From NCBI GenBank assembly GCA_024681295.1, contig JAILBC010000074.1, positions 1 through 45,202 on the forward strand: a DNA stretch of 45,202 nt. The letters are read 5' to 3'. Positions within the stretch are counted from its first letter, which is position 1; every line of letters starts with the position of its first letter. Source of the stretch: Bacteroidales bacterium. Its GTDB lineage: Bacteria > Bacteroidota > Bacteroidia > Bacteroidales > F082. Made by a program: the position numbers and the translations under genes. Of the stretch, positions 17,132 through 33,533 are shown in pieces. The notes beneath the pieces are model-generated. The model did no database searches and was not told the origin of the DNA. It saw nothing but the letters and a program-made list of their open reading frames with translations.

Positions 17132-18043
17132 TCATTTCTTTCCGCCGACTTTAACGCCGTTGGATTTGTTCCCAGAGGCCTTCACCCCTGAAGAATTTGA
17201 ACCAGAAGGCTTGGAACCTGCAGAAACCGTGCCACTCTTTCCACCCTTGCCACTACTACCCGTAGTGTTCAACCTATAACCGGCAGCTTCGGCTACCTCC
17301 TTGATATGGGTGGCGCGTTTTTGGGTGTCGGGGTGGTCGGAGAATGCCTGTGCCAAGGTGCCTTGCTGCCCTGTGTCACCGCTGACGCTGATGAGCACAT
17401 TCAATGCGTGGTACATGGCGAAGGGGTCAACACCGTTCTGGACGCAGAATTGGAAGGCCATCTCGTCGGCCTCGGTCTCCTGACGGCGTGAGTAGGCGTT
17501 TTGGGCCAGTTGCTGTCCCAAGTCGCCGAGAAATCCCGTGGAGAGGGCACCTCCCGTCTGGCTGACGGCAGCAATGCCGTAACGGGCAGCTACAACGAGG
17601 TAAGCATTACGGTAGGAGTCGCGCACATCCTTGTTGATGAGGTGACCCAACTCGTGGCCGATAACGGCGAACAATTCATCATCGTTCATCACGTCCATCA
17701 AGCCTGAATACACTCTTACGCTACCATCGCCACTGGCAAAGGCATTGATGGTGCTCGACTGGTAGACCTTGTAATTCAAGTTCAGGTTGCTGATGTTGTG
17801 GAACCTGCCCATGACGCGGTTCAGGCGTTGGGTGTATTCGCTACTAGCAGGAGCAATGGTGTTCTCTTTGTCCATCTGGGCCATGTATTCGGTGCATACC
17901 TCGGCAATCTGTGCATCACTGATGGTTAATGCCGTGGCTACGGCAGCGCCGGCATTCAAGGCGGCGTTTTGGTCAACAACTTTGAGCATGGAGCAGCCGG
18001 TCATCATCGTGACGCAAAGCACTCCTAAGAGGATTCTTTTCAT
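17132..18043 (-). CDS. M48 family metalloprotease lipoprotein (copy 1)
   Basis: A 303-residue zinc metallopeptidase anchored by an SPII signal (lipobox MTGC, Cys17). The catalytic motif HELGH has H130, E131 and H134; the third zinc ligand is expected in ETEAD (E189 with D193). Flanking segments NAFASGDGSVRVYSGLMD and NKDVRDSYRNAYLVVAARYG are nearly identical to the copy at 32652-33515. Family relatives such as BepA and LoiP act in outer-membrane quality control. The C-terminal tail, about 40 residues, is a Ser/Gly/Lys-rich repeat (SSGVKASGNKSNGVKVGGKK) absent from the other copy. Divergent from the tubulin-like operon. Promoter at 18069-18076. Confidence 0.92.
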   Translation of the reverse strand: MKRILLGVLCVTMMTGCSMLKVVDQNAALNAGAAVATALTISDAQIAEVCTEYMAQMDKENTIAPASSEYTQRLNRVMGRFHNISNLNLNYKVYQSSTINAFASGDGSVRVYSGLMDVMNDDELFAVIGHELGHLINKDVRDSYRNAYLVVAARYGIAAVSQTGGALSTGFLGDLGQQLAQNAYSRRQETEADEMAFQFCVQNGVDPFAMYHALNVLISVSGDTGQQGTLAQAFSDHPDTQKRATHIKEVAEAAGYRLNTTGSSGKGGKSGTVSAGSKPSGSNSSGVKASGNKSNGVKVGGKK

Positions 18044-18076: not shown

Positions 18077-18117
18077 AAAAAAAGATGATAAAGCGTAAAA
18101 ATCTTTCTGATTATTTG

Positions 18118-18125
18118 TATTTTTG
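18118..18125 (+). promoter_or_regulatory. -7 promoter element for the tubulin-like operon
   Basis: TATTTTTG, 7 nt before the ATG at 18133. It lies inside the reading frame of the longer candidate starting at 18085, so that start is unlikely. The implied leader is only a few bases. Confidence 0.6.
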
Positions 18126-18132
18126 TAGGGTT

Positions 18133-20391
18133 ATGAAAATGAGTAAAAAAATATTCATTATACTATTGTTGCTGCTCGTGACCATAGGAGGTTGGGCGCA
18201 GTCAACCGCCCAGAAACCCAAACGCATTTACATCACCTTGGACGTGTCAGGCAGCATGATAGGCGATAAATACAACATGGCCAACTATGCCGCACAGACC
18301 ATCTCGGTTTTCAGCGACCCCAGTGACCGCGTCTATCTCTATTATCTTGGACAACAGCACGACATCAGCGGTGCTAACGGCTATAAACAAATCCAAAAGC
18401 CCTTTACCAGTTTGACAGGGCAGTACAAGTATCTCGAAATCTCAGATCTGACTCAGTTTCTTAAGGATTACCAAGTCGATGCACGTTATCAGGATTGGCT
18501 CTTTATTATCGGCGATGGCCAGTGGGACTACCCCAGGGCTAAACCTGAGTATGACAAAACCACTCTGGCGCTCAAACAAATAATTGAAAAGGGAACCCTT
18601 CAGGTGTGTTACCTGCAGACAGGCGAATTGCTTACCGAAAGAAATGCATTTACCACTTTTTTGGAGGAGATGCATTCGCCCATGGTTGACATCAAGATTT
18701 CTGACACTAAAGCCTCGTCGGTGCTGGGGCACTGCGTGTATTTTGCCAATAGGATTCTGGGGTTCAGTAACACCTACGTGGAGTTGTACCAACAGGATGA
18801 GCAGCACGTGGCATTCCGCTCGGAATTTCCCCTGGAACGCTGCCTGCTGGTGTACCAGTCGGGTAAGCCTGGCGCCACGGAGACGAAGATTGTGGAGGCA
18901 ACATGCAAGGGGAACGCCCTCTCCACCCAGGTGAAGGGGAATCCTAGCACCAAGCCGTTGGTGGTCGCTGGAAAACCCGTGGTCAACGGTATAGTCTGGG
19001 AGCTGAGTAGCCCACAGACCATGCCGGCCAATGACACAGTGTTGGTCCACTTCAATCAGCCTGTCGAGGTCCAGAGCCTGAAACTCTACCCTTATGTCGA
19101 TGTGGCCATCGGGATGCGCCCCTGGAGTGTTGCGATGGATACGTTGGTGGAAGTTGGCAATAATCGTTATCAAATTTGTGACAAGGAAAACAAAGTGCTG
19201 GTGAAGGTCAGTGCTACCGACAAATACGGTCATAAGTTCTCGCCGCAGCTGATGCAACGGATGGAGATGAAGCTCTCCGTCGCTAGTCGTGAGCTTGTGA
19301 CTACCTACTCGTCGTCAGACACCACCTTCCAAGCCATCTTGGAGATGCCTGGCGACACTTTGTCGTACTTCACCATGGTAGAATGCCCTGGTTATTTCAG
19401 CCGGGTTACCTCGCGCCAAACCGTGATGAAGTCTGCTGACGCCTGTCCTCCAGAGAAAGCCCCCTTGATCACCCTTCCGGTACAGCGTTTTGAGGTGGTC
19501 GACTTTGGGACCATGATGGAAGGAGGTCACTATGGCGGTCAGATCGACGATCCATTGTTCAACACTATCGCCGGCAAGGGCTCGTTCGACGAGATCTCAC
19601 TGAGCGGTCACGACTCCTGGATGCTCGAAAAGGCTGAAATTACTTATGAAGACGGACACATTATGTTGCTCCAGCAACCCAAAAGCGAGTTGTGTGAATG
19701 CGCTTTCCCTGACACCCTATGTTATGAGGTGACCTTGCGCTCACGAAGGGGCATTCGACACGAAGACAAACTATATGAGGGCTTTCTGATACCCGTCAAG
19801 GTCCCCGTGGAAAGAGGGAGGTGGATAACCCGCTGTTGGATGTATCTCGTTGCCTTGGGTGGACTGCTTCTACTTTTTATCTACATCCGCGCTTTGAAAC
19901 GGAAACGCCGCTTTGGGAAAACTTCGGGTGTCAAGTCGGTTTACTACGACCGCTATGGTGAAGAGGTCGATGACAATTACCAGCTCCCGTTACGCAAGGG
20001 AGGCCTCGGCGCTTGGCTGGTACGTTGGTTCTGGCCAGGAACCGAGAAAAACACGCTGAATTTTGTCGAACCAGAATCCACTATGATGTCTTTCGTGGCG
20101 GGAGACTCCATCAACACTGTGAGAATTCCTCGAGGCAGCATCGATCCGATGTCGGTAAGCGTTGATGGATATGACTTTGATAATGAGTACAATGCACCTG
20201 ACTATGTAAAGGTGTCCAATAATGGCAAGATTGAGTTGCTTAAGAATTCGGAAACCAAGGCGGGCTATCTCATGTATGTCGCAGGCGACAAGGCTGGTGA
20301 TGGATGGTTCCGTCTCCTCTCGTCGCTGCTGATGATTGCCACAGTTGTCGCTGGCTGCTTTGTCATCTGGATGCTGTTTAAGTCGTTTTAG
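18133..20391 (+). CDS. vWA-domain membrane protein of the tubulin-like operon
   Basis: A 752-residue inner-membrane protein. Signal peptide at residues 1-23. A von Willebrand A domain (about 30-190) has the metal-binding MIDAS motif DVSGSM and the segment FIIGDGQWDYPRA. Beta-rich periplasmic regions follow, ending in the motif CECAFPDTLC. TM1 is at about 567-586. A basic stretch KRKRRFGK marks the cytoplasmic side. A module of about 130 residues containing YYDRYGEEVDD, LVRWFWPGTEKNTL and VDGYDFDNEY follows, then TM2 (about 727-748). The last 190 residues are shared with the next two proteins. First gene of the operon; 3 nt separate it from the next. vWA proteins bind ligands or assemble complexes; the partner is unknown. 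Confidence 0.85.
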   Translation: MKMSKKIFIILLLLLVTIGGWAQSTAQKPKRIYITLDVSGSMIGDKYNMANYAAQTISVFSDPSDRVYLYYLGQQHDISGANGYKQIQKPFTSLTGQYKYLEISDLTQFLKDYQVDARYQDWLFIIGDGQWDYPRAKPEYDKTTLALKQIIEKGTLQVCYLQTGELLTERNAFTTFLEEMHSPMVDIKISDTKASSVLGHCVYFANRILGFSNTYVELYQQDEQHVAFRSEFPLERCLLVYQSGKPGATETKIVEATCKGNALSTQVKGNPSTKPLVVAGKPVVNGIVWELSSPQTMPANDTVLVHFNQPVEVQSLKLYPYVDVAIGMRPWSVAMDTLVEVGNNRYQICDKENKVLVKVSATDKYGHKFSPQLMQRMEMKLSVASRELVTTYSSSDTTFQAILEMPGDTLSYFTMVECPGYFSRVTSRQTVMKSADACPPEKAPLITLPVQRFEVVDFGTMMEGGHYGGQIDDPLFNTIAGKGSFDEISLSGHDSWMLEKAEITYEDGHIMLLQQPKSELCECAFPDTLCYEVTLRSRRGIRHEDKLYEGFLIPVKVPVERGRWITRCWMYLVALGGLLLLFIYIRALKRKRRFGKTSGVKSVYYDRYGEEVDDNYQLPLRKGGLGAWLVRWFWPGTEKNTLNFVEPESTMMSFVAGDSINTVRIPRGSIDPMSVSVDGYDFDNEYNAPDYVKVSNNGKIELLKNSETKAGYLMYVAGDKAGDGWFRLLSSLLMIATVVAGCFVIWMLFKSF

Positions 20392-20394
20392 CCT

Positions 20395-22278
20395 ATGAAA
20401 CGGATACTGCTTTTCTTGCTTTGCTTCGGCGTGTTCCAAGGGATGGGCCAAAAGATCCATCCTTGGGATGGGTACATCTTTCCGTTCTGCACCGATGAGA
20501 ATCCTTACGGCATCACTTACGACTCAGGTACAAAGGGCGAGGCGGCTTTCCCGAAGAAAGGCGACATCGGATGCCTTCACAAAACGCCAGGCCCGGTGTG
20601 GTACTACATGCAGATTGACAATCCCGGAGACCTGCTGATTTATATCGAACAGTTCTCCGTGGACGACCACTTCCCCCTGGATGTCGACTTTGCCTGCTGG
20701 GGACCGTTCGAAGCGGAGTCGAAGATTGACTTCCTGAAGAAACTGAGGAACTCCTATAAGCTGGAGACCAAAGACCATCCTACCCATAGGCCTAGCAAGG
20801 GCGACCATTCCCTCGATTTGGGAGGTTATCCTTTCGACAATCTGGTAGATTGCAGCTTCGACCCCGCTGGGACGGAGTGGTGCTTCATCCCCAATGCCAA
20901 GACAGGGGAGTGGTACCTGCTGCTGATCACCAATTATTCGCGGAAACCTGGTAAAATCCATTTTGAGCGAGTTGATGACAAATCGACAGCCACCACCAAC
21001 TGCGATATGACGCTCCCCGTTATGATCAATCCTTGCCCCAAAGGATTAAGGCAAGTCGACGACCGCACCTCCGCCATCTGCCTTTACGACGACAAGGCCT
21101 TGGTTACCGTCGAACTGGAAGGGGAGGGCAATTTCACCCTGTCCAAACAAAGCCTGAAGAAGACCCAAGTGGTGGTGTATGCCAATGGAAGGACTTATAA
21201 CGCCAAGTTGTTGGGAGAGGCTTTCGAATGCGAGATCGATATTGAGCAGGATACTACTGCCTACTATGCCGTCGTGGAGTGCCCCGATCCTGAGTTCAAA
21301 CTTCAAACAGAACAGCATTTTATCGTCAGGTCGAACGACTGCGATCCCGGCAGGATTCCTATGACCTATGGTGAGACGATACACGTAGGTGGCGTGGACC
21401 TTGCCGACCTGAAGCGTGGCGACAAGCCTGTGGATGTGGTGTTTTCGGATAAGGAAGGATACCGTGATGTTAACCTTGACGATTATCATGTGGAGGTGGA
21501 GAACAAAAGTCTCTTCGTGGAGGAGGTCGGAGTCGGACAGAAGGACAATAAATTGCAATTGACTCCCAAGTTGCGTGGCGACTGGTGCGACTGCTTCCTT
21601 CCCGACAGCCTCTCTTTCCGTGTAACGTTGCTGCCGAAAGACCCCCAAAGTGGAGCTAAACCCATCGAGATGCCTGTTGTCATCGGAGTCGAACGGCATT
21701 CGACTTGGATGTCGCGCTGTTCTTGGGTCCTTGTGGCGATAGGGGCTTTGCTGATCCTATTCCTCTACCTTCGTGCGATATTCCGCAAACGCCGTTTCAA
21801 GAAGCACGCCATGGTGACACCAGTCTACTATGACCGTTACGGCGAGGAAGTCGACGACGGCTCGGGCCAACGGCTGCGCAAGACAGGCTTTGCTGCTTGG
21901 TTTGCCCGCTGGTTCTTGCCAGGGACGGAGAAGCGAACCCTCAGTTTCGAGAGCCCTGAGGCTGGCTCACTGAAGTTTGTGGCTTCGGAGTCGGTCGAGA
22001 TGGTGGAGATGCCCAAAGCATGCATCGACACGGAAACCATGGAGGTGGATGGCTACGACCCGGATACTGACAGGGCTCCGTCGCGTCCGATCAGATTGGG
22101 TGCCAACGGGAAGATAAATGTCAGAAAGAGCAACGGCATCAAGGACGGTTACCTCTATTTCACTCCCGGTAGAGCACGCGATGGCGGAGGCTATCGTCTG
22201 TTCCTTGGAATCCTGATGTTTGTCGACCTTGCGGCAGTGATAGTGTTGGCTGTGTTGATGCTTCGAGGCCTTATTTGA
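20395..22278 (+). CDS. Paralogous membrane protein with PPC-like surface domain
   Basis: A 627-residue protein. Signal peptide at residues 1-19. Residues about 30-200 resemble a beta-sandwich common in Bacteroidetes T9SS and gliding-associated surface proteins: GCLHKTPGPVWYYMQI, then DVDFACWGPF, then VDCSFDPAGTEWCFIPNA and GEWYLLLITNYS. A further beta-rich stretch ends in WCDCFLPDSL. TM1 is at about 442-463, then FRKRRFKK, the cytoplasmic module with YYDRYGEEVDD, FARWFLPGTEKRTL and VDGYDPDTD, and TM2 near 603-625. It differs from its vWA neighbour in the N-terminal domain but keeps the CxC motif, membrane and cytoplasmic parts. This suggests exchangeable periplasmic sensors on a common cytoplasmic adaptor. 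Confidence 0.78.
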   Translation: MKRILLFLLCFGVFQGMGQKIHPWDGYIFPFCTDENPYGITYDSGTKGEAAFPKKGDIGCLHKTPGPVWYYMQIDNPGDLLIYIEQFSVDDHFPLDVDFACWGPFEAESKIDFLKKLRNSYKLETKDHPTHRPSKGDHSLDLGGYPFDNLVDCSFDPAGTEWCFIPNAKTGEWYLLLITNYSRKPGKIHFERVDDKSTATTNCDMTLPVMINPCPKGLRQVDDRTSAICLYDDKALVTVELEGEGNFTLSKQSLKKTQVVVYANGRTYNAKLLGEAFECEIDIEQDTTAYYAVVECPDPEFKLQTEQHFIVRSNDCDPGRIPMTYGETIHVGGVDLADLKRGDKPVDVVFSDKEGYRDVNLDDYHVEVENKSLFVEEVGVGQKDNKLQLTPKLRGDWCDCFLPDSLSFRVTLLPKDPQSGAKPIEMPVVIGVERHSTWMSRCSWVLVAIGALLILFLYLRAIFRKRRFKKHAMVTPVYYDRYGEEVDDGSGQRLRKTGFAAWFARWFLPGTEKRTLSFESPEAGSLKFVASESVEMVEMPKACIDTETMEVDGYDPDTDRAPSRPIRLGANGKINVRKSNGIKDGYLYFTPGRARDGGGYRLFLGILMFVDLAAVIVLAVLMLRGLI

Positions 22279-22301
22279 TTGTTTTTGAAGGTAAAAAGTT
22301 G

Positions 22302-22309
22302 TATCTTTG
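22302..22309 (+). promoter_or_regulatory. Internal -7 promoter element within the tubulin-like operon
   Basis: TATCTTTG in the 49-bp gap between the second and third genes, 18 nt before the ATG at 22328. It could drive the third paralogue, the tubulin-like gene and the two downstream genes separately from the vWA gene. Confidence 0.6.
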
Positions 22310-22327
22310 CAAGTTAATATGATCAAA

Positions 22328-23335
22328 ATGAAAAAATACCTGGTTTTATCGTTGATTCTCGTCGCAGCACTGCGCTGTTTTGCGGCCCGTGAAGAAGAGC
22401 CCCAAATCATCGAAAAACCTGTTGCCGACTGGGGGACTCTATCCTTTGAAACGCTTAAGACCGAGCCTATTATTGGTACTATGGTGGATGAGCAAAGTTT
22501 GGCCACACTAGACCCGAGCAATTTCGACCTCACAGTGGAGATTGAAAACGACTTTCTTTATGATCGCCCAAGGGTTCACATCGAGGGCGACAAAATCCTC
22601 ATCGACATCCATCCCAGAGGTGAATGGTGCGAGTGCTTTTTCCCGAAGAACCTGAACATCAGGATTTGCGCTACCCAGAAAGAGGGGGCCTACGATGCCG
22701 AAGGCAAGCACTATCTTAAAACCGTGTATCCTATCCATATCACAGTGGTGAAAACCCGTATGTGGATGCCGCGTTGCCTTTGGGTATTGGTCACCATCAT
22801 CGGGCTGCTTCTGCTGTTTGTTTATCTGCGCTCCATTTCGAAGAAACGCCGTTTCAAGAAAAACGCAGTGATTACACCGGTTTACTTTGACCGTTATGGC
22901 ATCGAAGTGGACGATGGTGCGGGCCAACGCCTTCGCAAGGAGGGCTTCGTGGCCTGGTTTGCCCGCTGGTTCCTGCCTTTCGATGAGAAGAACACACTCA
23001 GTTTTGAAAGCCCTGAGGTCAGTTCCATGCCTTTCACCGCTTCCGATTCAAGCGAGATGGTGGAGATTTCCAAGGGAAGCGTCGACCCAGAAACTATGGA
23101 GGTCGACGGGTATGACCCTGACAGCGACATTCATCCCGATCAACCGATTAAGCTGGCCAACAACAGCGTGATCAACGTATACAATTACAGTAAGGTGAAA
23201 CAGGGCTTCCTCCGCTTCTCGGCGAACAACGAGAGGGACGGGGGAGGGTACAAGGTGTTCCTGACGGTGCTGATGTTCGCATCTCTGGCCGCCATCATCT
23301 TCATGATTTACCTGATGATTAAATCGTTTATGTAA
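22328..23335 (+). CDS. Minimal paralogous membrane protein of the tubulin-like operon
   Basis: A 335-residue protein that is a stripped-down version of the two genes before it. The signal peptide starts MKKYLVLSLILV and ends near CFAA. A short periplasmic part (about 25-150) is mostly the membrane-proximal domain with WCECFFPKNL. TM1 is at about 152-171, followed by KKRRFKKN, the cytoplasmic module (PVYFDRYGIEVDD, FARWFLPFDEKNTL, VDGYDPDSD) and TM2 near 311-334. No extra sensor domain is present. ATG at 22319 is an alternative start; the TTG at 22307 lies within the promoter and is rejected. It is 35 bp upstream of the tubulin-like gene. Function unknown; inferred to be a scaffold or the constant partner of the system. 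Confidence 0.75.
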   Translation: MKKYLVLSLILVAALRCFAAREEEPQIIEKPVADWGTLSFETLKTEPIIGTMVDEQSLATLDPSNFDLTVEIENDFLYDRPRVHIEGDKILIDIHPRGEWCECFFPKNLNIRICATQKEGAYDAEGKHYLKTVYPIHITVVKTRMWMPRCLWVLVTIIGLLLLFVYLRSISKKRRFKKNAVITPVYFDRYGIEVDDGAGQRLRKEGFVAWFARWFLPFDEKNTLSFESPEVSSMPFTASDSSEMVEISKGSVDPETMEVDGYDPDSDIHPDQPIKLANNSVINVYNYSKVKQGFLRFSANNERDGGGYKVFLTVLMFASLAAIIFMIYLMIKSFM

Positions 23336-23370
23336 GTAAAATCAATATAATAATTAAAAACTATTCAATT

Positions 23371-26300
23371 ATGCCAACTCCAAGTAAACCAACATTAATC
23401 ATCGGCCTGGGCGGTGTAGGCTGCCGGATTGTCGAAGGCGTCTACCGTCAGTTTGAAGCGAGCCATCCCGAGGACATCGACCGCAGGAATGTGGAGTTCC
23501 TCTGCCTCGACACCGATGAGAGCGACATCAACAAGCGCAGAAAAGTCATGCCGGAGAACAACGTGGTGAAGACCTCGTCCGACCTGAGCGACACGGTGGG
23601 TGGATACATCGATCGCATCAAGGGCAAGACCACCGTGACCGACTGGTTCGACACCAGTAGCCAGCAGTTGCTGGGCATGCCGCTCAACAAGGGCGCCGCG
23701 CAGGTCAGGATGGCCTCGCGCCTGGCCCTCATGTCGGCCATCAACGAAGGCAAGCTGGCCGCCATCGACAACAGCATCAGCCGTTTGATGGCTGTTGAGC
23801 CTGAGCGTCATGCTGGCAACATCATCCGCACTTACATCGTCACCAGTCTGGCAGGCGGCACAGGTGCAGGCTCATTCCTTCAGATCGCCTATTACGTGAA
23901 GAACTCCATGAGAGACCACGGAGCCAACGCCCCCGAAGTCGACGGATTCTTCCTCCTGGCGGATGTCCTCTGTGACGATGCTAGCATTGGCCTCTCCGAC
24001 GACCAGAAAGAAAACATCCGTTCCAACACCTACGCTTGCATGAAGGAGATGCTGGCCTTCAGCAGCAGCGACCGTGACGAAGCGCTCAAGAAAGTCGAGT
24101 TTGAATACCGCCTGGGACAGAAGGACAAAGGCCTCCCGTCTAACCAGCCCTACGACCAGTGCTACATCATCGACTATACGGCTTCCAGCGGAGAGAACCT
24201 CGGCAAGGAAAGCCGCTACGAGAGCCAGGTGGAGTCGTTCGTTTACCTGACCGCTTTCAGCCCCACCGGCGACCAGTACCGCAGCAATGTCATCAACAAC
24301 ATTCGTCAGCAGATCCAGGACGAGACCAAGAAGTTTGCATCCTTGGGTGTCTCCAAGTTGGTGTATCCTGTCGACGACTTGTTCGCTTATTTCGCCCGTC
24401 AGCGTGTGACCGATAACATGAGGGCCTCGTGGTGCCTGATCGACAAGGACTATCAAGAGAAATACGCCGAATATAAGAAGAACAAACGTGAAGGCATCCC
24501 CACACCGGAACCCGATAAAGGACAGCACTTCATGGATATGGTCAAGCAACTGGCCGCCAGCTCAGGCAGCCAAGGAGCAGAGTTCGGAGAGATCTACCGC
24601 AGCACCCAGGTCCTCGACAAGGACTTCAAGCCGATTAAGTCGAAAGCCAGCGAATACCTGGCAGCCATGCAGCGCTTCGCCATGATGAAGGTGAATTCCA
24701 GCGGCGAGTTGGATAGCCGCTATTCGGAGTGCGTGAAGTCGAACGTGGGCTTCACCACCAAGGACGTGCTGGAAAACGACGTGCAGTTCGTGGTCAAGCG
24801 AGAACGCGCCCTTGAGGACTACAGAAACCAGGTGTTCTCCTTTATCGACAACGTGAAACGAATTACCCCGAAACAGTGCTTCCTCGACGACCACGACAAC
24901 GAGAACTACGTCTCCAAGACTCCCCAGGAAGACCTCCATCACCTCAACACTTTCATTCTCTCAAAGGACGAAGAACTGCATCCTCTGGCGGTACGGTATT
25001 TCCTCTATGACCTCAGAGACCAGATCAAGCCTCTATTGAAGAAGAAAAAGACCGCCAACGAGACGCTGGAGAAGAAGATCAAAGAGGATTATTCCAAACT
25101 GTTTGACGATCCTACCACCAAGAAAGTGGAGACCGCCGTTGACACCATACAAGGTTCCCATCAGAAGCGTACCGGCCTTACCGGTCTCGCCAACCGCATC
25201 ACAGGTCAGAATCCCTACAGAAGAACTAAGGAGGACTATGAAGCCAAATCGAGGATGCAAGCCGACAACATCAAGAAGTTCGCCTACGAGAAACTCTTGG
25301 AGGAGACCCTCTCCACCATGCTGAATTACATCAACCGACTCCTTGAGGAGAGCGAAGGCTTCTTCGACCGCCTGCCCGTGGCGCTGGAGGAAGTTGACAA
25401 CATCCGTGTGGCCCTGCTGAAGAAACACGATAGCCTGAATGACAAGGATGTCACCTATGTGCTGGCTTCGGAGCAGATCAAGAAAGACATCTACAACTTC
25501 GTGGTCAGCCGCAACGACTCGCCCTTCTTCCCGACGGTGATGTCGGCAGCACTCTATCGGAGCATGTATCACAATGTGGCGGTGGAGCTGGCAGCCAACA
25601 AGTTCGTTACCTCCAAGACCGTGGACGAGGAAACCAAGAAACAGGCAGCCATCGAGGCCAACAAACGCATCATCGAAGAGTGCGTCGCCTATCAAGACAA
25701 ACTCATCAGGGAAAGCAATAGAGACTATGCCCAGAAGAACGTGATTGCAGCCTTGAAGGAGGAAGCCATGAGAGAGTCAAACAACGACCCCGTGGCCGCC
25801 AAAGAATACATGGAACACAAATTCCAGATGTTCAGGGAACAGGCCAAGTTCTGGGGCCCCAACGACCTCGATCCCAAGGTGCGCTACATCAACGCATGGG
25901 GATTCCATCCTGACTGTGTCGGCTCGGAGACCATCTCCGCCAAAGACGCTGACGCTCTGTTCGGTGACGAAAGAGTGGACACCAATCCCGAGAACGCCGC
26001 CACACGACTGGTATCCAAGTTCTTCAGCCCATACGAGATTGTCAGGGCCAACTCGGTAACCCTGCTGTCGATCAACAAACACTTCAAGAAGTTCCACGCC
26101 AAGGAGAAGACCGATTTGACTGACGAGTACTTTGGCCCTTACTTCACCGCCTACAGAACAGTCGTCGACCGTGTGTTCGCCTCCGACAGACGGAGCCGCT
26201 CATTTGTCAAAGGCGTCGACTCAGAAGTGCTGAAAGACTGCTCGCCGCATCTCGACAAGCGTTGGCACCTGCCGGCCTACATGCCCAACATCGGTTCTTC

Positions 26301-26952
26301 GTACATGGAAGAGACCACCAAACTCTTCCATGCCCTTTGCTACGGCCTGCTGTCAGACGATTTCAAGGCTGTGTACAACGGTGGCGAATATTATTGGAAG
26401 TTCATCAGCAATACCTCGAAATTCATCAGGGATATCGACCAAAGGATGATTGGCATCGGACAAACCTTGGAAGGCGCATTCAACAACCTGTTTGAGAAAG
26501 GTCTGGTCAACAACCCGGACATTGTCAACCAAGTACTCGAAGCCAACGAGGAGCGTTGGAAAGAAGCCAAGAACCAGTGGCTCGACACTGAACACGACGA
26601 GACCAACGAGCTGGCTATGATGAAAGAGCATCCCATGGTCAAGGCCATCGTCGAATTCAACTTTAACTTATGCCCGGCACCAGCATTCAAGACCACTAAG
26701 AACTGGTTTACCCTGCTGACCGCCCGGAAAGGTTCGACGCTGTTTAATGTTCTCGAAAAACACGATGGCTACCTCCGTCATCACTTCCTCACCAACCTGG
26801 TGGAGCGGATCATCGAGGTCTTCGGACAAAGCTCCAACACCCAGAGCCTGTGTGAATACATCCTTTCTGGCGTTGGCACCGTCTATGCCGACGATGCGAA
26901 GGGCATCTTGCGTGAGTTTAAAGAAAAAGGCTGTTTTGAGCCAGTTGAATAA
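23371..26952 (+). CDS. Tubulin/FtsZ-like GTPase family protein (Tubulin_2-like)
   Basis: A 1193-residue cytoplasmic protein. The N-terminal 170 residues carry the nucleotide-binding elements of the tubulin/FtsZ fold: a T1-like loop IIGLGGVGCRIVEG (11-24), the strand FLCLDTDESD (43-52) equivalent to the FtsZ NTD loop, and the phosphate-binding signature AGGTGAGS (161-168) corresponding to GGGTGT/S. The remainder is about three times the size of FtsZ and mostly helical, with charged coiled-coil-like stretches (about 540-800), no TM and no signal peptide. It is not cell-division FtsZ: size, motifs and neighbours all differ. Makarova and Koonin (2010) described related FtsZ-like families near vWA proteins, proposed to remodel membranes. 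Polymerisation here is unproven. Confidence 0.85.
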   Translation: MPTPSKPTLIIGLGGVGCRIVEGVYRQFEASHPEDIDRRNVEFLCLDTDESDINKRRKVMPENNVVKTSSDLSDTVGGYIDRIKGKTTVTDWFDTSSQQLLGMPLNKGAAQVRMASRLALMSAINEGKLAAIDNSISRLMAVEPERHAGNIIRTYIVTSLAGGTGAGSFLQIAYYVKNSMRDHGANAPEVDGFFLLADVLCDDASIGLSDDQKENIRSNTYACMKEMLAFSSSDRDEALKKVEFEYRLGQKDKGLPSNQPYDQCYIIDYTASSGENLGKESRYESQVESFVYLTAFSPTGDQYRSNVINNIRQQIQDETKKFASLGVSKLVYPVDDLFAYFARQRVTDNMRASWCLIDKDYQEKYAEYKKNKREGIPTPEPDKGQHFMDMVKQLAASSGSQGAEFGEIYRSTQVLDKDFKPIKSKASEYLAAMQRFAMMKVNSSGELDSRYSECVKSNVGFTTKDVLENDVQFVVKRERALEDYRNQVFSFIDNVKRITPKQCFLDDHDNENYVSKTPQEDLHHLNTFILSKDEELHPLAVRYFLYDLRDQIKPLLKKKKTANETLEKKIKEDYSKLFDDPTTKKVETAVDTIQGSHQKRTGLTGLANRITGQNPYRRTKEDYEAKSRMQADNIKKFAYEKLLEETLSTMLNYINRLLEESEGFFDRLPVALEEVDNIRVALLKKHDSLNDKDVTYVLASEQIKKDIYNFVVSRNDSPFFPTVMSAALYRSMYHNVAVELAANKFVTSKTVDEETKKQAAIEANKRIIEECVAYQDKLIRESNRDYAQKNVIAALKEEAMRESNNDPVAAKEYMEHKFQMFREQAKFWGPNDLDPKVRYINAWGFHPDCVGSETISAKDADALFGDERVDTNPENAATRLVSKFFSPYEIVRANSVTLLSINKHFKKFHAKEKTDLTDEYFGPYFTAYRTVVDRVFASDRRSRSFVKGVDSEVLKDCSPHLDKRWHLPAYMPNIGSSYMEETTKLFHALCYGLLSDDFKAVYNGGEYYWKFISNTSKFIRDIDQRMIGIGQTLEGAFNNLFEKGLVNNPDIVNQVLEANEERWKEAKNQWLDTEHDETNELAMMKEHPMVKAIVEFNFNLCPAPAFKTTKNWFTLLTARKGSTLFNVLEKHDGYLRHHFLTNLVERIIEVFGQSSNTQSLCEYILSGVGTVYADDAKGILREFKEKGCFEPVE

Positions 26953-29117
26953 TGAGTGACGTTTCTGTATTACTGAATTTAACAAGCCGAATCGCTTTTG
27001 AAGAAACCGACCCGCTGATGAGCCTGGTGAACGCGAAAGAGCCGCTGCTCTTTTACAACAGGCTCTCGGTGGAAAGGTTCCCTTCCGACAAGGAGTTGTA
27101 TTTGGAGCATTCCGAACGCCTGGTCTCGAACCTCCGCAATCTGCTTGAGGCGCGGTCGCTTTCGGTCGACGATGACGATGGACGGATCCGTCTGATCATC
27201 ATCCTTGACCTGGTGGAGGGAATCTTCCAGCCAGAAGGGAGTCGGCTCTTTTTCCCTGCCCAGAAAGTTCGTGCTGTCAAAAGCCTGATGGCAAGGATTT
27301 TCGAGGAGAGGAACCCACTTCTTGAGCGGATGGAGTACTGTTTCCTGTTTATCAACAGCAGTTTTGACGACAAGCAGCTCTTCTCGTTTTACCAAAAGCT
27401 GGCCTACGATGGCTGTATGGGAGGCGATGACCAGACTTGGTTCAGCAGCAACGTCATACGCTTGAACGACTGTCGCGACGAGTTGTTCAGGAAGTTGGAC
27501 GCGCCCGATGTCGACATGATGCTGGATGACCCTAGCGTCAGTTTGGCGTACCAGCATTTCAACGATGCTGTTGCCGAGGTCATGGAGAAGGTGGGTTCAA
27601 GGCTGGCTGAGGCAGGGGTGAGAGACGAATTCGAATCCCTGCTGCGCGACGCGGTAGCACAGGTCAAGACTGTCGGTGACTTCGTGTCCTTTGACTATGA
27701 TGCCACGGTGCGCGCCTGCGTGAGCAAACTCATCGGTTTGAAAGCCAGCGACTTCTTCACCGACTGCGTGTTCTTCATCTTACGGTACGACGAAAGCCCA
27801 GCGGCCATCAAACAAAGGGACGAGGTCTTCGTCAAGTCGCTGGTGCAACTGCTCTGCACCATTGACAGCAATGACTACACCCGTTATTTCAAGTCGGGTA
27901 TCCTAAGGAGTGCGAGACTCTTCGTTTTGGGTGAATACGTCGGTTCCAACATCGACATCGAAGCCCTGTCTGCCTTCGGCCAACAGGCGAGAACCTGCCT
28001 GCCGCGGTTGTCGGATGCCAAATGGACTGAAGATATGGACGTGGAGTACCGTATATTCTCGCCCAATATCTCGGAACCGGCCAAAACGGACACGCATCGC
28101 GATATGAACGAGAAATACACCAAGAAACGGACTAGACTGGTAGATGACTTCATCGATGCACGGCAGGTCCCGTTTTTCTTCGACAAAGAGAAGGGAGGAT
28201 GGAACTGGTATTCCGAAGTGATGGAATGCGTTACCAGCCTATATGAGTTTGAGAAGGAGAACGACCGACCACTATATGATACGCCGAAACGTCTCACCAG
28301 TAAGGAGATGCGCGCCGAGACGAAAAAAACCACCTACCGGGAGCTTGAGAATGACAGGGCTAAACTGGCTCAACAGGATATACAGGTGATGCATGTGGAA
28401 GACCTGAACGCTTACCTGACAAAACGCCGCGGTTTAATGGATTCTTTCGCCAAAGCCATCAACGAGTTGAAAGAGGAGATGCCCAAACTTGGCTATCTGG
28501 CCTGTCTGCTATGGATGGGAATCCTCTCTGTATTGGGCTTTACGATCTGTTATTCGTTTCATTTCTGGAGAGGCAACACCGGTCCGCTCTATGCCGTCGC
28601 CATCGCTTTTGGTGCCGCGGGGATACTGTTCTTGTTGGCTTCGCTGATTGGACAAGCCACTGTCAAGCGTAAGATACGGAATGTCTATATCAGGATTGAC
28701 AACATCTGCCTGCAGCTACAGGAGAACTTGGAGAAATATCTCGCGGATGTGAACAAACGCGCTAAACTGCAAAAGGAGGCTGATGTCAGACGTCGCAACC
28801 TCGACGAGATGGAGGAGAAGCTCGAGGAATTCAAGAGCCACAACAAGCGCGTGGACCTGTGGAAAACGCACTTCTCCAGCATCGCCGACAAACTCGATTA
28901 CATCCTGGCAGCGCTTGGGAAAGACACGGAGGCTTCCTCCGAGAAGATGAAACTGAACGTGAGCGACTTCAGTCTGGAGGGTTTCCCGACCATGCCCCTG
29001 GTGATCCGATCCAAATACAAAGCTATGAACACCCAAATCATGCAAGCGCCAGTCGACATTCGCTCGGTCACCTGCATGGTGAAGCATTTCCGTTTTACTG
29101 AAATCAATTCGATTTAA
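26952..29117 (+). CDS. Two-TM coiled-coil protein of the tubulin-like operon
   Basis: A 721-residue protein that I cannot assign to a family. The start overlaps the tubulin-like stop by 1 nt (TAATG), so translation is probably coupled. The N-terminal 200 residues look like an alpha/beta fold: the strand IRLIIILDLVEG (about 80-91), then KVRAVKSLMARIF, then a strand YCFLFINSSF, loosely like a vWA or Rossmann core without a MIDAS motif. The middle is helical. Two adjacent TM helices lie at about 515-535 and 545-567, flanked by coiled coils (before: RELENDRAKLAQQD; after: LQENLEKYLADVNKRAKL to EMEEKLEEFKSHNKR). The short loop between the TMs suggests a hairpin with both ends cytoplasmic. Candidate membrane anchor for the tubulin-like polymer. 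Confidence 0.7.
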   Translation: MSDVSVLLNLTSRIAFEETDPLMSLVNAKEPLLFYNRLSVERFPSDKELYLEHSERLVSNLRNLLEARSLSVDDDDGRIRLIIILDLVEGIFQPEGSRLFFPAQKVRAVKSLMARIFEERNPLLERMEYCFLFINSSFDDKQLFSFYQKLAYDGCMGGDDQTWFSSNVIRLNDCRDELFRKLDAPDVDMMLDDPSVSLAYQHFNDAVAEVMEKVGSRLAEAGVRDEFESLLRDAVAQVKTVGDFVSFDYDATVRACVSKLIGLKASDFFTDCVFFILRYDESPAAIKQRDEVFVKSLVQLLCTIDSNDYTRYFKSGILRSARLFVLGEYVGSNIDIEALSAFGQQARTCLPRLSDAKWTEDMDVEYRIFSPNISEPAKTDTHRDMNEKYTKKRTRLVDDFIDARQVPFFFDKEKGGWNWYSEVMECVTSLYEFEKENDRPLYDTPKRLTSKEMRAETKKTTYRELENDRAKLAQQDIQVMHVEDLNAYLTKRRGLMDSFAKAINELKEEMPKLGYLACLLWMGILSVLGFTICYSFHFWRGNTGPLYAVAIAFGAAGILFLLASLIGQATVKRKIRNVYIRIDNICLQLQENLEKYLADVNKRAKLQKEADVRRRNLDEMEEKLEEFKSHNKRVDLWKTHFSSIADKLDYILAALGKDTEASSEKMKLNVSDFSLEGFPTMPLVIRSKYKAMNTQIMQAPVDIRSVTCMVKHFRFTEINSI

Positions 29118-29141
29118 CCCCATAAGAAAACTGTTTTTCCC

Positions 29142-32100
29142 ATGTCAAACCTCGTTACGATCATCATTTTGCTGCTTACACTGCTCTATGTCCTTGGTTA
29201 TCTGATCAGTGGTAACAGGAAGAAAGTGGAGACCTCAGCCCACCAATGGTGGTATATCCCGTGGTTCGCCCTGTTGTATGCGGTGCTGATGTACCTGGTT
29301 TACTACGACTCGGATTTTCAGGATTGGGATCTTGTCAACGACATCGTCGGGGAACACCATGTGGAAGCCTCGTTTTTCTTGTTTTGTGCAGGTGTTTGGG
29401 CGGTCATTGAGAGAATGATCTTGCGCCGCGATTTCATGCACAAGAAACTGATTAAACTTTTCAGGAACCTCTTTGCTGGCAAGCGGACTGATAAAGACAA
29501 GGTGCTACCATTCCCTTATTATCTCGATGAGGAAGACAAGGTGAGGACGAAGCCGGGGCAGGTGTTCTATCGCCGTACCATGAAGGTCTTGATCATCTTC
29601 ATCACCCTAGTCTATGTGGTGTTTTTCCTCCTTTCCGCCTACGCTGACCTTGATTTCTATCCCATCTCGGCCTTAGGCCTGCTGGGACTCCTTCCTTTGT
29701 GCGACTATTACGTTTATCTCTGTGCCGAGGCCCCGGTGGAGCGAAAGGACAAGGAAATCGTCGTTGAGGAAAGCCACAGCAACTTTGACGAGTTGTGGAG
29801 CCTTTACACGAATACGTTCGACAATTACACGGTGGCGTGGAAACGTACCCTGACGGAGAAGGAATTGAAGAAGAACAGGGCCAACAAGGTGAATAACGAC
29901 GACGACTGGGAAGACATGATGAAGCTCTTCGCCGAGAACCATCTTGACGGCATTATCCTGAACTGCGACTTGGTGACGGCCTTCATGAAACTGGAGCCTA
30001 TCTTCGATCATGTGGAGAAAAACGGCCGCTTTGTGCTGATTGCCATCGATGTGCCGAACCATTTTATCAAAAACGAAGAAAAGACCTACGTTGACGCCAT
30101 CGCCGACAAACTGAGACTTATTATCAAGAAGGACTTCTCCGTCTATGGAGGAAAGTCGTCCGTGGAGTCGCTCAGCAACAGCGTCGTTTTAGCACCCCTT
30201 TCTGTGGTGTCGGGACAGGGCCTTTACAAGGAGTGGATGGAGAAGATCGGCCTGATTGTGGTGGCTAACATCTTCGACAAGAACATCTCGAACATGTACG
30301 AGAGCAGGCGGTTCAGCTATGTGCTTCAGACGGTGAACCCCGACTATCAGCTTTTATTTGTCGCCCCGTATTGCCGTGAGGTGCAGCCATCGATAGCGAA
30401 CAGTTGGCTGACCAGCACTGAGACGCCGGTGGAGAAGGCCATGAAGCAGTTCCCCAACAGCAGCCGCCAGTTCTTTATCGGCTACAATTACGAGGACTAT
30501 GGTGCCCGTGTTGAGAGGGTGTTTGTCAGTCGTCCGTCGGAGCCCTTGTATTCAGGCAGCGAGTTGGCGCCTTTGGCCTTGAGTTCCACGGCAGAGGGCC
30601 ATGTCAAGGCAGTGACGCCGGTTCATTATCTCGAACTGACCTACTCCAATGCCATCGAAGGCAAGGAAGAGATTGGAAAATTCGCTTCTCTCCTTAACGA
30701 GGAATACCAAGTGGCCAGCAAGGACATCAACGAGAATATCAAGAACCATCTGCTGCCAGTGGAACGTATCGAGGAAAGCCAGATCTTTAACATCATTTAC
30801 GACCGCGACAACAACGCCCCAGCGGTATATGCCAACTGGCAACATCTTGGACTCGAAGAGAACTTTTCAATAGTTATATCGAAGCCCTATCTATTTAGGG
30901 ATTATTTCAACGCCAACCACAGCTTCTTCATGGGCGCGCCTTTCGCCGCCATCCAGCCTAGCCTCAGCAAGAGCAGGATTACCTTGGCCATTGTGTTGCT
31001 GAAGCTGCTGCAGAACGCTGCGATGGAGGAGGAGGAACTCTGCGACCTCCTGTTGTTCTATTACGACAGCAGCGAGATCAAGTCCGTCTCGACCTTGATT
31101 AAAGACCTGTTCACCACTTACTTCACTAGAGACTTGGCCCGTTCGCTTGTGACCGAGGATGTGGTCGTGTTTGACGGTGAGAAATACAACCATCACATCA
31201 AATACAAACTCTCGCTGTATGGTGACAACGACCAGCGTTTCCTCGATACGGTGACCGTCAAGGACGAGTCGGGCAATGCCTTGTTCGACATTGTTCGTGA
31301 CTTGATGGAACAGAACTATGTGGCTGGACAGATTCACACCTTCTCAGGAAGGCCCTACCAGATCAAGGATTTCAACAGCAAGACGAAGACGTTGAATGTG
31401 TCGAGGGTGAACAACAGCGACAAGGACATCCTCTTCTACAGGCCCAGCATGAAGGTCAAGATAGCCGACGACCGTATCCCCATCAAAGAGATGAACCCCA
31501 CTGAGTTGAAGCCCAAGGTGTGGCGCCACCGCGAAACCGACCAAGAGCTCTCCATCGTGTTTGACGGCTTTGAGACTGGCGTGGAGGTGGCCACTACGGA
31601 ATGGTTTGAGTTCAACAAATACACCCTTTACGGCTATGTCAAGACTGGTTCCTCCGCCAAACCGCGTTATTATTCCAACGGCAAAGTGCTGAAGGTGTCG
31701 TTCAAGTATGTCTCCAAGCCCGAGTACGTGGATAGGATTGACGACATCCGCAAAGGCTTGCAGATTCTGCTGTATGAGGTGATGCAGTCGGTGTTCCCAC
31801 ATCATGCCCAATATCTCATCATCTCTTCGCTCGGTGAGGGTGATTCCGACCTGCCTTGGATTTTCAATCGCCTTGAGTGCGACGATTCCCAGGAGGAAGG
31901 CATGCTGACCTACTATTTCATCGAAGATGCCCATATCGATCTCGGCTTAATCGGGGTGTTGGCCAAGACTGAAACCATCTGGTACATCTTCCAGTATCTC
32001 TATGATTATCTGATCTGGCTGACCGAAGGCAAACTGGTGAGACCTGCTGGCTTCGACGCCTATCCGATCCGCAAGAAGCCCGACAAACTGGCGTTTTTGA

Positions 32101-32645
32101 AGTATGGCCGCGACCAACTTCCCGATTATCTCGATATTGACCTGTTGATCAGCTTTATCAAGGATTTTTATGAAGACGGCAAGGCATTGCAGAAGGCTGT
32201 GGAAGACCGGCAGGGACAGTTTGATACAACGAGCGATACCTCTGCCGTCGACACCAACACGCCGACCAACGCCGTCTATGAGAAAGTGAAAACCATGTTC
32301 AGGGATTATCTTGGCATCGACTTCGGATGGATTCCCCACAAAGTGCCTCAATTCAGCAGCACAAGTTATCCTTTCAATGCCATGGTTCGCGAGATGACCT
32401 ACATCTGGGAAAACTATAACGATAGCTTCAAGAAGGTTAGAAAGACGAACGAGGACCTAGCGGAGGGCCTCGCCGTTTGGACGGACTTGTACCTTTCGGA
32501 GCGTAACGGAGCTTTGGACATCGCTTGGCGCAGAGCCCAATATCTCACCAAGAACGACAAGGCTGGACGCGGCTTGAAGTTTATCCTGGGCCACTGCCCG
32601 AACAACCCGTATGTCTACATCCAGCAGATGGCGAAGGGGTTGTAA
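29142..32645 (+). CDS. Multi-TM protein with degenerate YprA/MrfA-like helicase region
   Basis: A 1167-residue inner-membrane protein. About five TM helices lie within residues 1-196; the rest is soluble and probably cytoplasmic. I read the soluble part as derived from DUF1998-type SF2 helicases. VYGGKSS (about 334-340) with VVLAPLSV, then LIVVANIF (371-378) sit where YDGDT, LTNPDML and VVVDELH occur. NWQHLGLEENFSIVIS (565-580) replaces WQQAGRAGR...S. FRDYF and NAAMEEEEL fit the following dimer-like region. GRPYQIKDF with ILFYRPSMKVKI (about 737-780) fits the GxxYxV...YYT segment. A DUF1998-like end spans about 870-965. The Walker A, DExH and arginine-finger residues are all missing, so it should be inactive. 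This homology is visual only. Confidence 0.6.
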   Translation: MSNLVTIIILLLTLLYVLGYLISGNRKKVETSAHQWWYIPWFALLYAVLMYLVYYDSDFQDWDLVNDIVGEHHVEASFFLFCAGVWAVIERMILRRDFMHKKLIKLFRNLFAGKRTDKDKVLPFPYYLDEEDKVRTKPGQVFYRRTMKVLIIFITLVYVVFFLLSAYADLDFYPISALGLLGLLPLCDYYVYLCAEAPVERKDKEIVVEESHSNFDELWSLYTNTFDNYTVAWKRTLTEKELKKNRANKVNNDDDWEDMMKLFAENHLDGIILNCDLVTAFMKLEPIFDHVEKNGRFVLIAIDVPNHFIKNEEKTYVDAIADKLRLIIKKDFSVYGGKSSVESLSNSVVLAPLSVVSGQGLYKEWMEKIGLIVVANIFDKNISNMYESRRFSYVLQTVNPDYQLLFVAPYCREVQPSIANSWLTSTETPVEKAMKQFPNSSRQFFIGYNYEDYGARVERVFVSRPSEPLYSGSELAPLALSSTAEGHVKAVTPVHYLELTYSNAIEGKEEIGKFASLLNEEYQVASKDINENIKNHLLPVERIEESQIFNIIYDRDNNAPAVYANWQHLGLEENFSIVISKPYLFRDYFNANHSFFMGAPFAAIQPSLSKSRITLAIVLLKLLQNAAMEEEELCDLLLFYYDSSEIKSVSTLIKDLFTTYFTRDLARSLVTEDVVVFDGEKYNHHIKYKLSLYGDNDQRFLDTVTVKDESGNALFDIVRDLMEQNYVAGQIHTFSGRPYQIKDFNSKTKTLNVSRVNNSDKDILFYRPSMKVKIADDRIPIKEMNPTELKPKVWRHRETDQELSIVFDGFETGVEVATTEWFEFNKYTLYGYVKTGSSAKPRYYSNGKVLKVSFKYVSKPEYVDRIDDIRKGLQILLYEVMQSVFPHHAQYLIISSLGEGDSDLPWIFNRLECDDSQEEGMLTYYFIEDAHIDLGLIGVLAKTETIWYIFQYLYDYLIWLTEGKLVRPAGFDAYPIRKKPDKLAFLKYGRDQLPDYLDIDLLISFIKDFYEDGKALQKAVEDRQGQFDTTSDTSAVDTNTPTNAVYEKVKTMFRDYLGIDFGWIPHKVPQFSSTSYPFNAMVREMTYIWENYNDSFKKVRKTNEDLAEGLAVWTDLYLSERNGALDIAWRRAQYLTKNDKAGRGLKFILGHCPNNPYVYIQQMAKGL

Positions 32646-32651
32646 CAGGAC

Positions 32652-33515
32652 TTAATCTTCATCATATCGATATCCGTCTTTCTCGGCCAGCTCTTTGATG
32701 TGTTTGGCACGTTTGACGGTGTCGGGGTGGGAGGAGAACATATTGCTCAGCACGGTGTGTTCCTCATTGTCGTCGCCGATTTCCATTAACACGTTGAGGG
32801 CTCGATACATGGCGAAGGGATCTACGCCGTTGTCGATGCAGAATTGGTAGGCTTTCTCGTCGGCTTGTGTTTCTTGACGGCGTGAGTAGGCGTTATTGGC
32901 CAGTTCGTCGCCGAGATCGCCGAGGAAGCCCATGGAGATGGCGTTGGCTCTTTCGCCGAACGACGAGATGCCGTAACGGGCGGCTACCACAAGATAGGCG
33001 GTGCGATAGGCATCACGCACGTCTTTGTTGATGAGATGTCCCAGCTCATGACCGATGACAGCGAACAACTCATCGTCGTCCATGACGTCCATAAGGCCGG
33101 AGTAGACACGCACGCTGCCGTCGCCGCTGGCGAAGGCGTTGACGGTGTTCTCGTCATCGTAGACGGCATAGTTCAGCTTGAGTTTGCCGAGATTCTTGAA
33201 ACGCTTCATGACCCTATTGAGCCGTAGGGTGTAGGGGTCATCGGCAGGGAGGATGACATTGGCGGAGTCCATGGACATCATATATTCGCTGCACAGGGCT
33301 GTGATCTCAGCGTTGCTGATGGTCATGGCTGAGGCGAGGGCGCCGGAAGCGGCAGCTACGGCATCGGGATCGAGGTTCTCGAAATGCGAGGTGACTTGCT
33401 CGGTGAGGTTGTCGCTGATGAGGTTGGCAATCTCGGTGCCCGCCACGTCGTTGAGGACAGAACAGCTGCTAAAAACAACGGAAACTACAAATAAGAGGGG
33501 TAAAAGTTTTTTCAT
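32652..33515 (-). CDS. M48 family metalloprotease lipoprotein (copy 2)
   Basis: A 287-residue zinc metallopeptidase lipoprotein closely related to the one at 17132-18043. The lipobox FSSC gives Cys18. HELGH has H156, E157 and H160, and the third ligand is expected in ETQAD. It shares long near-identical stretches with copy 1 (NAFASGDGSVRVYSGLMDVM, ELFAVIGHELGHLINKD, YLVVAARYGI). It lacks the Ser/Gly/Lys tail and has a longer N-terminal helix region (about 20-65). An ATG at 33524 is an alternative start; 33515 is preferred because MKKLLPLL gives a normal signal peptide. It ends 6 bp after the tubulin-like operon, tail to tail, so the two M48 copies bracket the operon. Predicted to act in the periplasm. 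Confidence 0.92.
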   Translation of the reverse strand: MKKLLPLLFVVSVVFSSCSVLNDVAGTEIANLISDNLTEQVTSHFENLDPDAVAAASGALASAMTISNAEITALCSEYMMSMDSANVILPADDPYTLRLNRVMKRFKNLGKLKLNYAVYDDENTVNAFASGDGSVRVYSGLMDVMDDDELFAVIGHELGHLINKDVRDAYRTAYLVVAARYGISSFGERANAISMGFLGDLGDELANNAYSRRQETQADEKAYQFCIDNGVDPFAMYRALNVLMEIGDDNEEHTVLSNMFSSHPDTVKRAKHIKELAEKDGYRYDED

Positions 33516-33533
33516 AATTATCATTTAGTGAAG

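Follow-up and report, generated by a model that had tools for sequence, protein, structure and literature searches.

A Tubulin_2 operon of Bacteroidales and its relatives in other phyla: a candidate membrane-tethered tubulin switch with an optional zinc-metallopeptidase module

Makarova and Koonin (2010, PMC2875224) described the FtsZl1 family together with vWA, GTPase, kinase and OmpA partners, and proposed that these systems remodel membranes. According to the main text of that paper, the P-loop GTPase, kinase and OmpA partners are frequent but not obligatory, most of the remaining operon genes encode no recognisable domain, and no T6-H7 elements could be assigned with confidence in FtsZl1; elements needed for filaments may be missing. 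Bacteroides caccae appears in its Figure 1 alignment, and a reviewer names an FtsZl1 locus of Bacteroides capillosus. Here we analyse a six-gene operon (genes A to F, Table 1) in a stretch of 45,202 nucleotides, referred to as the window, which is contig JAILBC010000074.1 (GCA_024681295.1) of a Bacteroidales bacterium of the F082 lineage. Like the FtsZl1-vWA systems, the locus has a family member by Pfam (protein D), a vWA gene and membrane proteins of unknown function. It differs in being without a P-loop GTPase, OmpA or kinase gene, as no Pfam model for any of these matched in A to F at E-values up to 1. Furthermore, E, F, the helicase-like body of F and the zinc-ribbon metallopeptidase of its relatives are not described in the main text of PMC2875224 available to us. 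An initial annotation of this DNA had already placed the locus in an FtsZ-like/vWA frame without OmpA or GTPase genes, and both points hold. It overlooked the zinc-ribbon metallopeptidase in relatives of F, and the decay of that domain in the window.

A second comparison is offered by the GTPase-centric conflict systems of Kaur et al. (2020, PMC7159879), within which tubulin and vWA proteins are described. The locus shares with these GAP1-N2/DO-GTPase systems a tubulin-domain protein, a membrane vWA protein, inactive enzyme modules and lineage-specific extras, while E and F are not among the components described in the parts of the paper available to us. It also differs in that its six genes and ten neighbours gave no Pfam match to DO-GTPase, GAP1 or FNIII. 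Pfam presumably holds models for the first two. In the text available to us, a 2023 study treats Tubulin_2 proteins as divergent and sets them aside (PMC9871819), and the vWA-FtsZl1 link receives a brief mention in a 2015 paper (PMC5898192). Within the open-licence literature on FtsZl1, PF13809, and tubulin combined with vWA, metalloprotease or inactive helicase, we found no paper on an E-F core, which the additional files of PMC2875224 may list, and no experiment on Tubulin_2/FtsZl1 function since the 2010 description.

A core of four genes, A-D-E-F, is present in Bacteroidota, Bacillota, Actinomycetota and others, with Neobacillus, Paenibacillus and Microbacterium among its carriers. One genome per species was scanned with D, and 80 loci were kept of 89 relatives; in six of the 80 the gene caller gave no D, and these were included in a six-frame recount. 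The loci were searched with the window proteins, after which profiles were iterated on the same loci, making the profile E-values circular. Of the 65 loci that extend 7 kb or more past the D start, 58 have an F by profile downstream of D on the same strand, its match beginning 3.7-6.3 kb after that start and usually two genes on; the vWA family of A lies upstream of D in 60 of the 67 loci where 1.5 kb or more is available. The window F alone matches 32 of the 80 loci, all on the same strand and downstream of D; the window A alone matches only 12, and the window E only three besides its own. In distant loci, what identifies E is mainly its position, length and transmembrane (TM) hairpin, and Pfam gave nothing consistent for it. 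The distances of D, E and F are correlated (r 0.91-0.97, uncorrected for species relatedness). The six-gene order, three A/B/C-type genes and then D, E and F, recurs in L034, a metagenome-assembled genome (MAG) of a lake Bacteroidetes; L033, a Bacteroidia MAG contig from G356 in the window's own genus, has two A-type genes followed by D, E and F. In a tree of D, made by a quick method and with several long branches, the window groups with L033, then with L034 and L064, within a clade of other Bacteroidota, Bacillaceae/Paenibacillaceae and Desulfobacca, the remaining clades being Clostridia, Actinomycetota and one myxobacterial MAG. The initial annotation had suggested checking gene order across Bacteroidales and had supposed a partner set specific to that order; gene order is indeed kept, beyond Bacteroidales too, and the absence of OmpA and GTPase stands, but the specificity does not.

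Seven loci are without F despite having room for it: L036, L044, L049, L086, L093 and L106, all of one Bacteroidota clade, and L095. A search of these seven genomes and two positive controls with the F alignment found both controls and was positive in 7/9 overall, with F located elsewhere in five of the six Bacteroidota genomes. E adjoins the unlinked F in four of the five, four of the five F proteins stop before the zinc ribbon (the fifth is cut by the contig end), and no peptidase domain was seen around the five genes in the stretches read. D, E and F thus tend to co-occur even when unlinked, and the peptidase is optional. Scattering of these genes in related genomes had been named in the initial annotation as evidence against a system; it does occur in this one clade, yet the co-occurrence persists there.

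D matches Tubulin_2 (PF13809) at E 5.8e-50 over residues 9-343 and PF00091 at E 1.6e-4, and for this reason its membership of the tubulin superfamily, at the level of profiles and not of the fold in detail, is settled far beyond chance. Both tubulin/FtsZ nucleotide motifs first reported for this large protein, FLCLDTDESD and AGGTGAGS, are located in it. Across an alignment of 41 members, Tubulin_2 was matched in all and PF00091 in 34; the FDTD-like strand and the glycine-rich loops are conserved, and G12, G14, G15 and G17 (T1 motif) as well as G162, G163, T164 and G167 (T4 motif) are invariant, as are P959, H960, D962, W965 and H966 near the C-terminus. FtsZl1 proteins are expected to have a coiled coil and an alpha-helical C-terminal region behind the tubulin domain; in D this domain is followed by 850 residues whose matches to helical PDB chains are non-significant. 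Neither D nor F had a significant match among PDB sequences, gamma-tubulins reaching E 0.11-0.26 for D. Eight further genomes of the window's genus are matched in the tubulin part of D only, and the distant Tubulin_2-like genes of L020-L027 are of this kind; the neighbouring genes of L021 differ, so that it is perhaps a second FtsZl1 type.

A, B, C, E and F are all predicted membrane proteins, as first proposed. Hydropathy points to TM segments in each of these five, with four in F at the threshold applied, but to none in D. Although no Pfam model matched the window A itself, it has homologues among the vWA proteins encoded ahead of D in other phyla, and VWA_2 was matched in 11 of the 30 family members scanned; homology thus places A in the vWA family, in agreement with the vWA partner proposed at the outset. 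Identity to the C-terminal half of A is 32% for B and 35% for C, and B and C are 51% identical to each other, which bears out the paralogy described earlier. By comparison and hydropathy, the three share a module in which a domain intervenes between two TM segments. E is a predicted membrane hairpin protein and F a predicted membrane-anchored one, and the early TM segments of F enclose a basic loop, which suggests that its C-terminal body is cytoplasmic.

Near its C-terminus the F family alignment reads CxFCG...DGRxRCxxC and then HELTHIWQ...EGxAxW. As such, relatives of F share with gluzincin-type metallopeptidases an HExxH and a later EG motif, placed after a CxxC...CxxC ribbon. Single F members match metallopeptidase models weakly (DUF6782 in 23 of 38 and BSP in 20 of 38 at E up to 1, best 7.5e-5), with other weak matches of this domain to DUF6055, M1 and DA1-like, and the matches inspected individually fall below the curated cut-offs. 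With a profile built from 26 F-family members, the domain was located in 54 of the 80 loci; 41 have it fused to F and 13 in a separate frame. The HExxHxW signature is intact in 45 of the 54; L104 has HELVRAW, and eight give no match to the pattern. The window F differs, with both histidines gone, REMTY at the position of HExxH, and two internal stretches of the domain missing, ribbon included, while the frame is open. The window's genome, 91% complete, yielded no second copy of the peptidase. Compared with the F of L034, the window F has an identity of 0.259 in the C-terminal part, 0.331 in the body and 0.215 in the first 200 residues, against 0.365, 0.315 and 0.251 for the F of L033; window and L033 are 56% identical in the body and 44% at the C-terminus. 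Such a pattern is what relaxed constraint on the window's C-terminus would give. In seven Clostridial F proteins of about 1730-1760 residues (L085, L089, L090, L096, L099, L101 and L102), a degenerate peptidase is followed by some 350-500 extra residues.

The body of F was compared by hhalign with a set of 31 helicases, found via PF09369 or by likeness to one such. F aligns with the RecA1 region (score 37.5-38.8) and the C-terminal DUF1998 region (34.6 in one run, about 27 in others) of the DUF1998/MZB superfamily 2 (SF2) helicases in the correct order, weakly by score. None of 100 column shuffles reached the real score for either region, column shuffling being a lenient control, and reversed-sequence controls scored 26.5 and 25.8. 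F differs from these helicases in that a pattern search found Walker A in 0/44 F proteins and DExH/D in 1/44, and in its membrane anchor and, in many relatives, its fused peptidase. We regard the helicase likeness as a weak to moderate lead, suggested by order and position more than by score.

The genomic site of the operon provides a context. Five genomes of the genus (L117-L121) carry, between the M48a protease gene and an S1-protein gene, the same trio of Band_7 (SPFH), DUF3784/bacterial-PH-like and CAAX-protease (Rce1-like) genes; Pfam was run on one set (L117), and the others were judged alike by eye. G356 has one extra gene at this site, and M48b is found there in three of the five genomes. 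The Band_7 gene is present in 83 of the 99 genus genomes, and in 43 of the 46 that are of high quality; a search of the window's own genome did not find it. D, on the other hand, is matched over almost its full length in only two of the 99, that of the window and G356, and G356 retains the SPFH cassette with its operon on another contig. For these reasons the operon is accessory, and it sits at a site where congeners have a membrane cassette; we infer that it replaced the SPFH cassette. Considered by itself, a cassette of SPFH, DUF3784/PH-like and CAAX-protease genes beside an M48 protease suggests a locus for envelope quality control. M48b has relatives of 72-85% identity in just three others of the 99 genomes, in a different orientation in G311. 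A linkage of M48b to the operon was rejected, as these three genomes have M48b by the SPFH cassette and no operon.

What, then, could such a locus do? Our tentative preference, which we rate as a little short of an even chance, is that it encodes a signal-gated, membrane-tethered tubulin switch whose output is proteolysis in many relatives and a protease-dead scaffold in the window. A and B would sense an envelope signal, and the module shared by A, B and C would recruit D, or trigger its GTP-dependent assembly, at the membrane through E. Assembled D would then act on the helicase-like body of F. The output in many relatives would be a zinc-ribbon metallopeptidase, either forming the end of F or encoded by an adjacent gene. 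With the peptidase site lost in the window, F would most likely serve as a scaffold there, giving an output that is structural (membrane organisation) instead of proteolytic. The signal, the triggered assembly of D and the gating of F are what we infer in this scheme. Since the operon occupies the site of the congeners' SPFH/DUF3784-PH-like/CAAX-type protease cassette beside an M48 protease, its biological setting is most likely envelope maintenance. A wider formulation, which we would hold with more doubt, is a transmembrane switch that crosses phyla, in which an extracytoplasmic vWA receptor drives a tubulin-like polymer in the cytoplasm, gating a zinc protease held at the membrane by a helicase turned structural part; the window would have lost the protease and have two extra receptor-type proteins. 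If the proposed switch is real, bacteria would couple tubulin-type assembly with transmembrane signalling and with proteolysis. The recurrent four-gene core, the candidate zinc peptidase output and the existence of strain-named carriers make Tubulin_2/FtsZl1 function directly testable.

Several observations weigh against the proposed switch. FtsZl1 proteins possibly do not have the elements required for filaments. Some members have no peptidase (the four orphan-D-clade F proteins described above, and L054), and the core output may therefore be something other than proteolysis. The loci that were counted had also served to train the profiles of F, A and the peptidase, E has no recognised domain and its family alignment no invariant column, and the F-alignment search found no F in the genomes of L106 and L095. 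The patchy spread within the genus would suit conflict systems equally. As to the helicase-like body, the hhalign probability for the alignment is just 3.5-6.4%, D as an unrelated control scores 33.2 on the helicase profile against 37.5 for F, and out-of-order hits of 33.9 and 30.8 outrank the DUF1998 one in one run. The pseudo-helicase of the initial annotation thus has the ordered alignment and the missing Walker A in its favour and these scores against it. Our estimate for the tubulin switch is unaffected by them, because it does not depend on the helicase reading.

The strongest competitor is membrane remodelling as envisaged by Makarova and Koonin, where D filaments would bend the inner membrane or bud vesicles, the vWA protein would regulate them and the peptidase of the relatives would be a helper. 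Assignment of D to FtsZl1, the vWA partner, the TM segments in five of the six window proteins, and a peptidase that is dispensable in the window and in four orphan-D-clade F proteins all agree with this. However, an intact peptidase signature in 45 of 54 domain loci would be left unexplained, an OmpA or GTPase partner is absent here by Pfam, and the T6-H7 elements discussed in PMC2875224 are the very ones that were not confidently identified in the family. We consider this explanation unlikely, though deserving of some weight.

That the locus is a conflict system directed against phages or other invaders, akin to those of Kaur et al. (2020), in which membrane sensing would set off the assembly of D, with suicide or confinement as the output, strikes us as rather improbable. 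Its accessory, patchy distribution, its inactive enzyme modules and similar component themes would fit. Among flanking genes of the relatives, 98 of 114 eligible frames were scanned; the other 16, for the most part antisense frames of high-GC loci, were dropped on inspection as probably spurious, and the scan had no control flank set. Among the matches listed, defence models account for Csx1/Csm6 (2), DrmC (2), PsyrT (2) and GmrSD (3), which lends this explanation a little support; a defence-island reading was set aside as weak. Conversely, none of A to F matched a PADLOC model below E 0.01, none matched DO-GTPase or GAP1 in Pfam, and the most frequent flank families among the matches listed are transglutaminase-like (5/98) and ribose-phosphate pyrophosphokinase (4/98). 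Transglut_core genes directly follow F in Clostridia (L065:14171-15385, L100:19356-20384 and L108:19830-21200), and an FtsK/SpoIIIE-type ATPase gene does so at L111:19476-22784. Transglutaminase-like and FtsK neighbours are more readily explained by processing of the envelope or surface than by nucleic-acid defence, and the transglutaminase-like genes count in favour of the tubulin switch.

It is very improbable that the window copy is merely a decaying, non-functional cassette with its peptidase gone and the rest drifting, for although the remnant has lost two internal stretches and its C-terminus is less like L034 than the body is (26% against 33%, the opposite of the 37% against 32% of L033), all six frames are open, D keeps its T1 and T4 glycine motifs, F remains 56% identical to L033 in the body and 44% at the C-terminus, and degenerate or absent peptidases recur in other lineages.

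Table 1. Features of the operon and its immediate flanks, in window coordinates
Feature	Position	Strand	Open reading frame	Basis
M48a, M48 metalloprotease, LoiP-like; flank at host site, outside operon	17132..18043	-		Pfam
TANNTTTG, promoter-like motif ahead of gene A	18118..18125	+		motif scan
Gene A: predicted N-terminal signal anchor, extracytoplasmic vWA (MIDAS-like DVSGS), TM, cytoplasmic domain, C-terminal TM	18133..20391	+	18085-20391	family homology and hydropathy
Gene B: paralogue of the C-terminal half of A, N-terminal region differs	20395..22278	+	20395-22278	sequence comparison and hydropathy
TANNTTTG, second motif, ahead of gene C	22302..22309	+		motif scan
Gene C: short paralogue of A and B; opens at TTG 22307, alternative start 22328	22319..23335	+	22307-23335	sequence comparison
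Gene D: Tubulin_2/FtsZl1 protein, 1193 aa, no TM predicted	23371..26952	+	23371-26952	Pfam, alignment, hydropathy
Tubulin-like nucleotide-binding domain of D	23395..24399	+		PF13809, E 3.3e-51
Gene E: 721 aa, predicted TM hairpin at residues 515-566, no recognised domain	26952..29117	+	26952-29117	Pfam, alignment, hydropathy
Gene F: predicted N-terminal TM segments, helicase-like body, metallopeptidase remnant	29142..32645	+	29142-32645	profiles, hydropathy
F residues 256-430: weak alignment to RecA1 of DUF1998/MZB SF2 helicases, no Walker A or DExH	29907..30431	+		hhalign
F residues about 848-960: weak alignment to C-terminal DUF1998 region of the same helicases	31683..32021	+		hhalign
Zinc-ribbon/metallopeptidase remnant of F; ribbon absent, REMTY at HExxH position (32388-32402)	32103..32627	+		family alignment
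M48b, LoiP-like M48 protease, other flank, 67% identical to M48a	32652..33524	-		Pfam and comparison

The six packed plus-strand frames first reported were all recovered (Table 1). With the listed starts the gaps between them are 3, 28, 35, -1 and 24 bases; only the second departs from the earlier figures, where 49 had been counted from the later ATG of C at 22328. The two TANNTTTG motifs of Table 1 we take to be Bacteroidota -7 type promoter elements, and because of the position of the first, the most likely start of gene A is the ATG at 18133. The motif has 29 matches in the window against 17.6 expected, and as many were seen in one of 100 shuffles. A foreign composition of the operon was rejected, since the GC content of A to F (0.496-0.536) lies inside the range of the flanking genes (0.473-0.558).

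Mobile origins were likewise considered. A viral scan found no relative of D, and the only match in a phage collection was MT836542 (L017), labelled Bacteriophage sp. but unverified and unannotated, which carries a Lachnospiraceae-like D and a vWA-family gene; its D falls among Lachnospiraceae in the tree, and it is probably a mislabelled bacterial contig, so a phage origin was rejected. A plasmid origin was rejected as well, there being no DNA match to D in plasmids, where seven protein matches cover just 15-49% of D. Elsewhere in the window, positions 8745-11696 encode one protein with both glycoside hydrolase family 3 and beta-lactamase-family domains.

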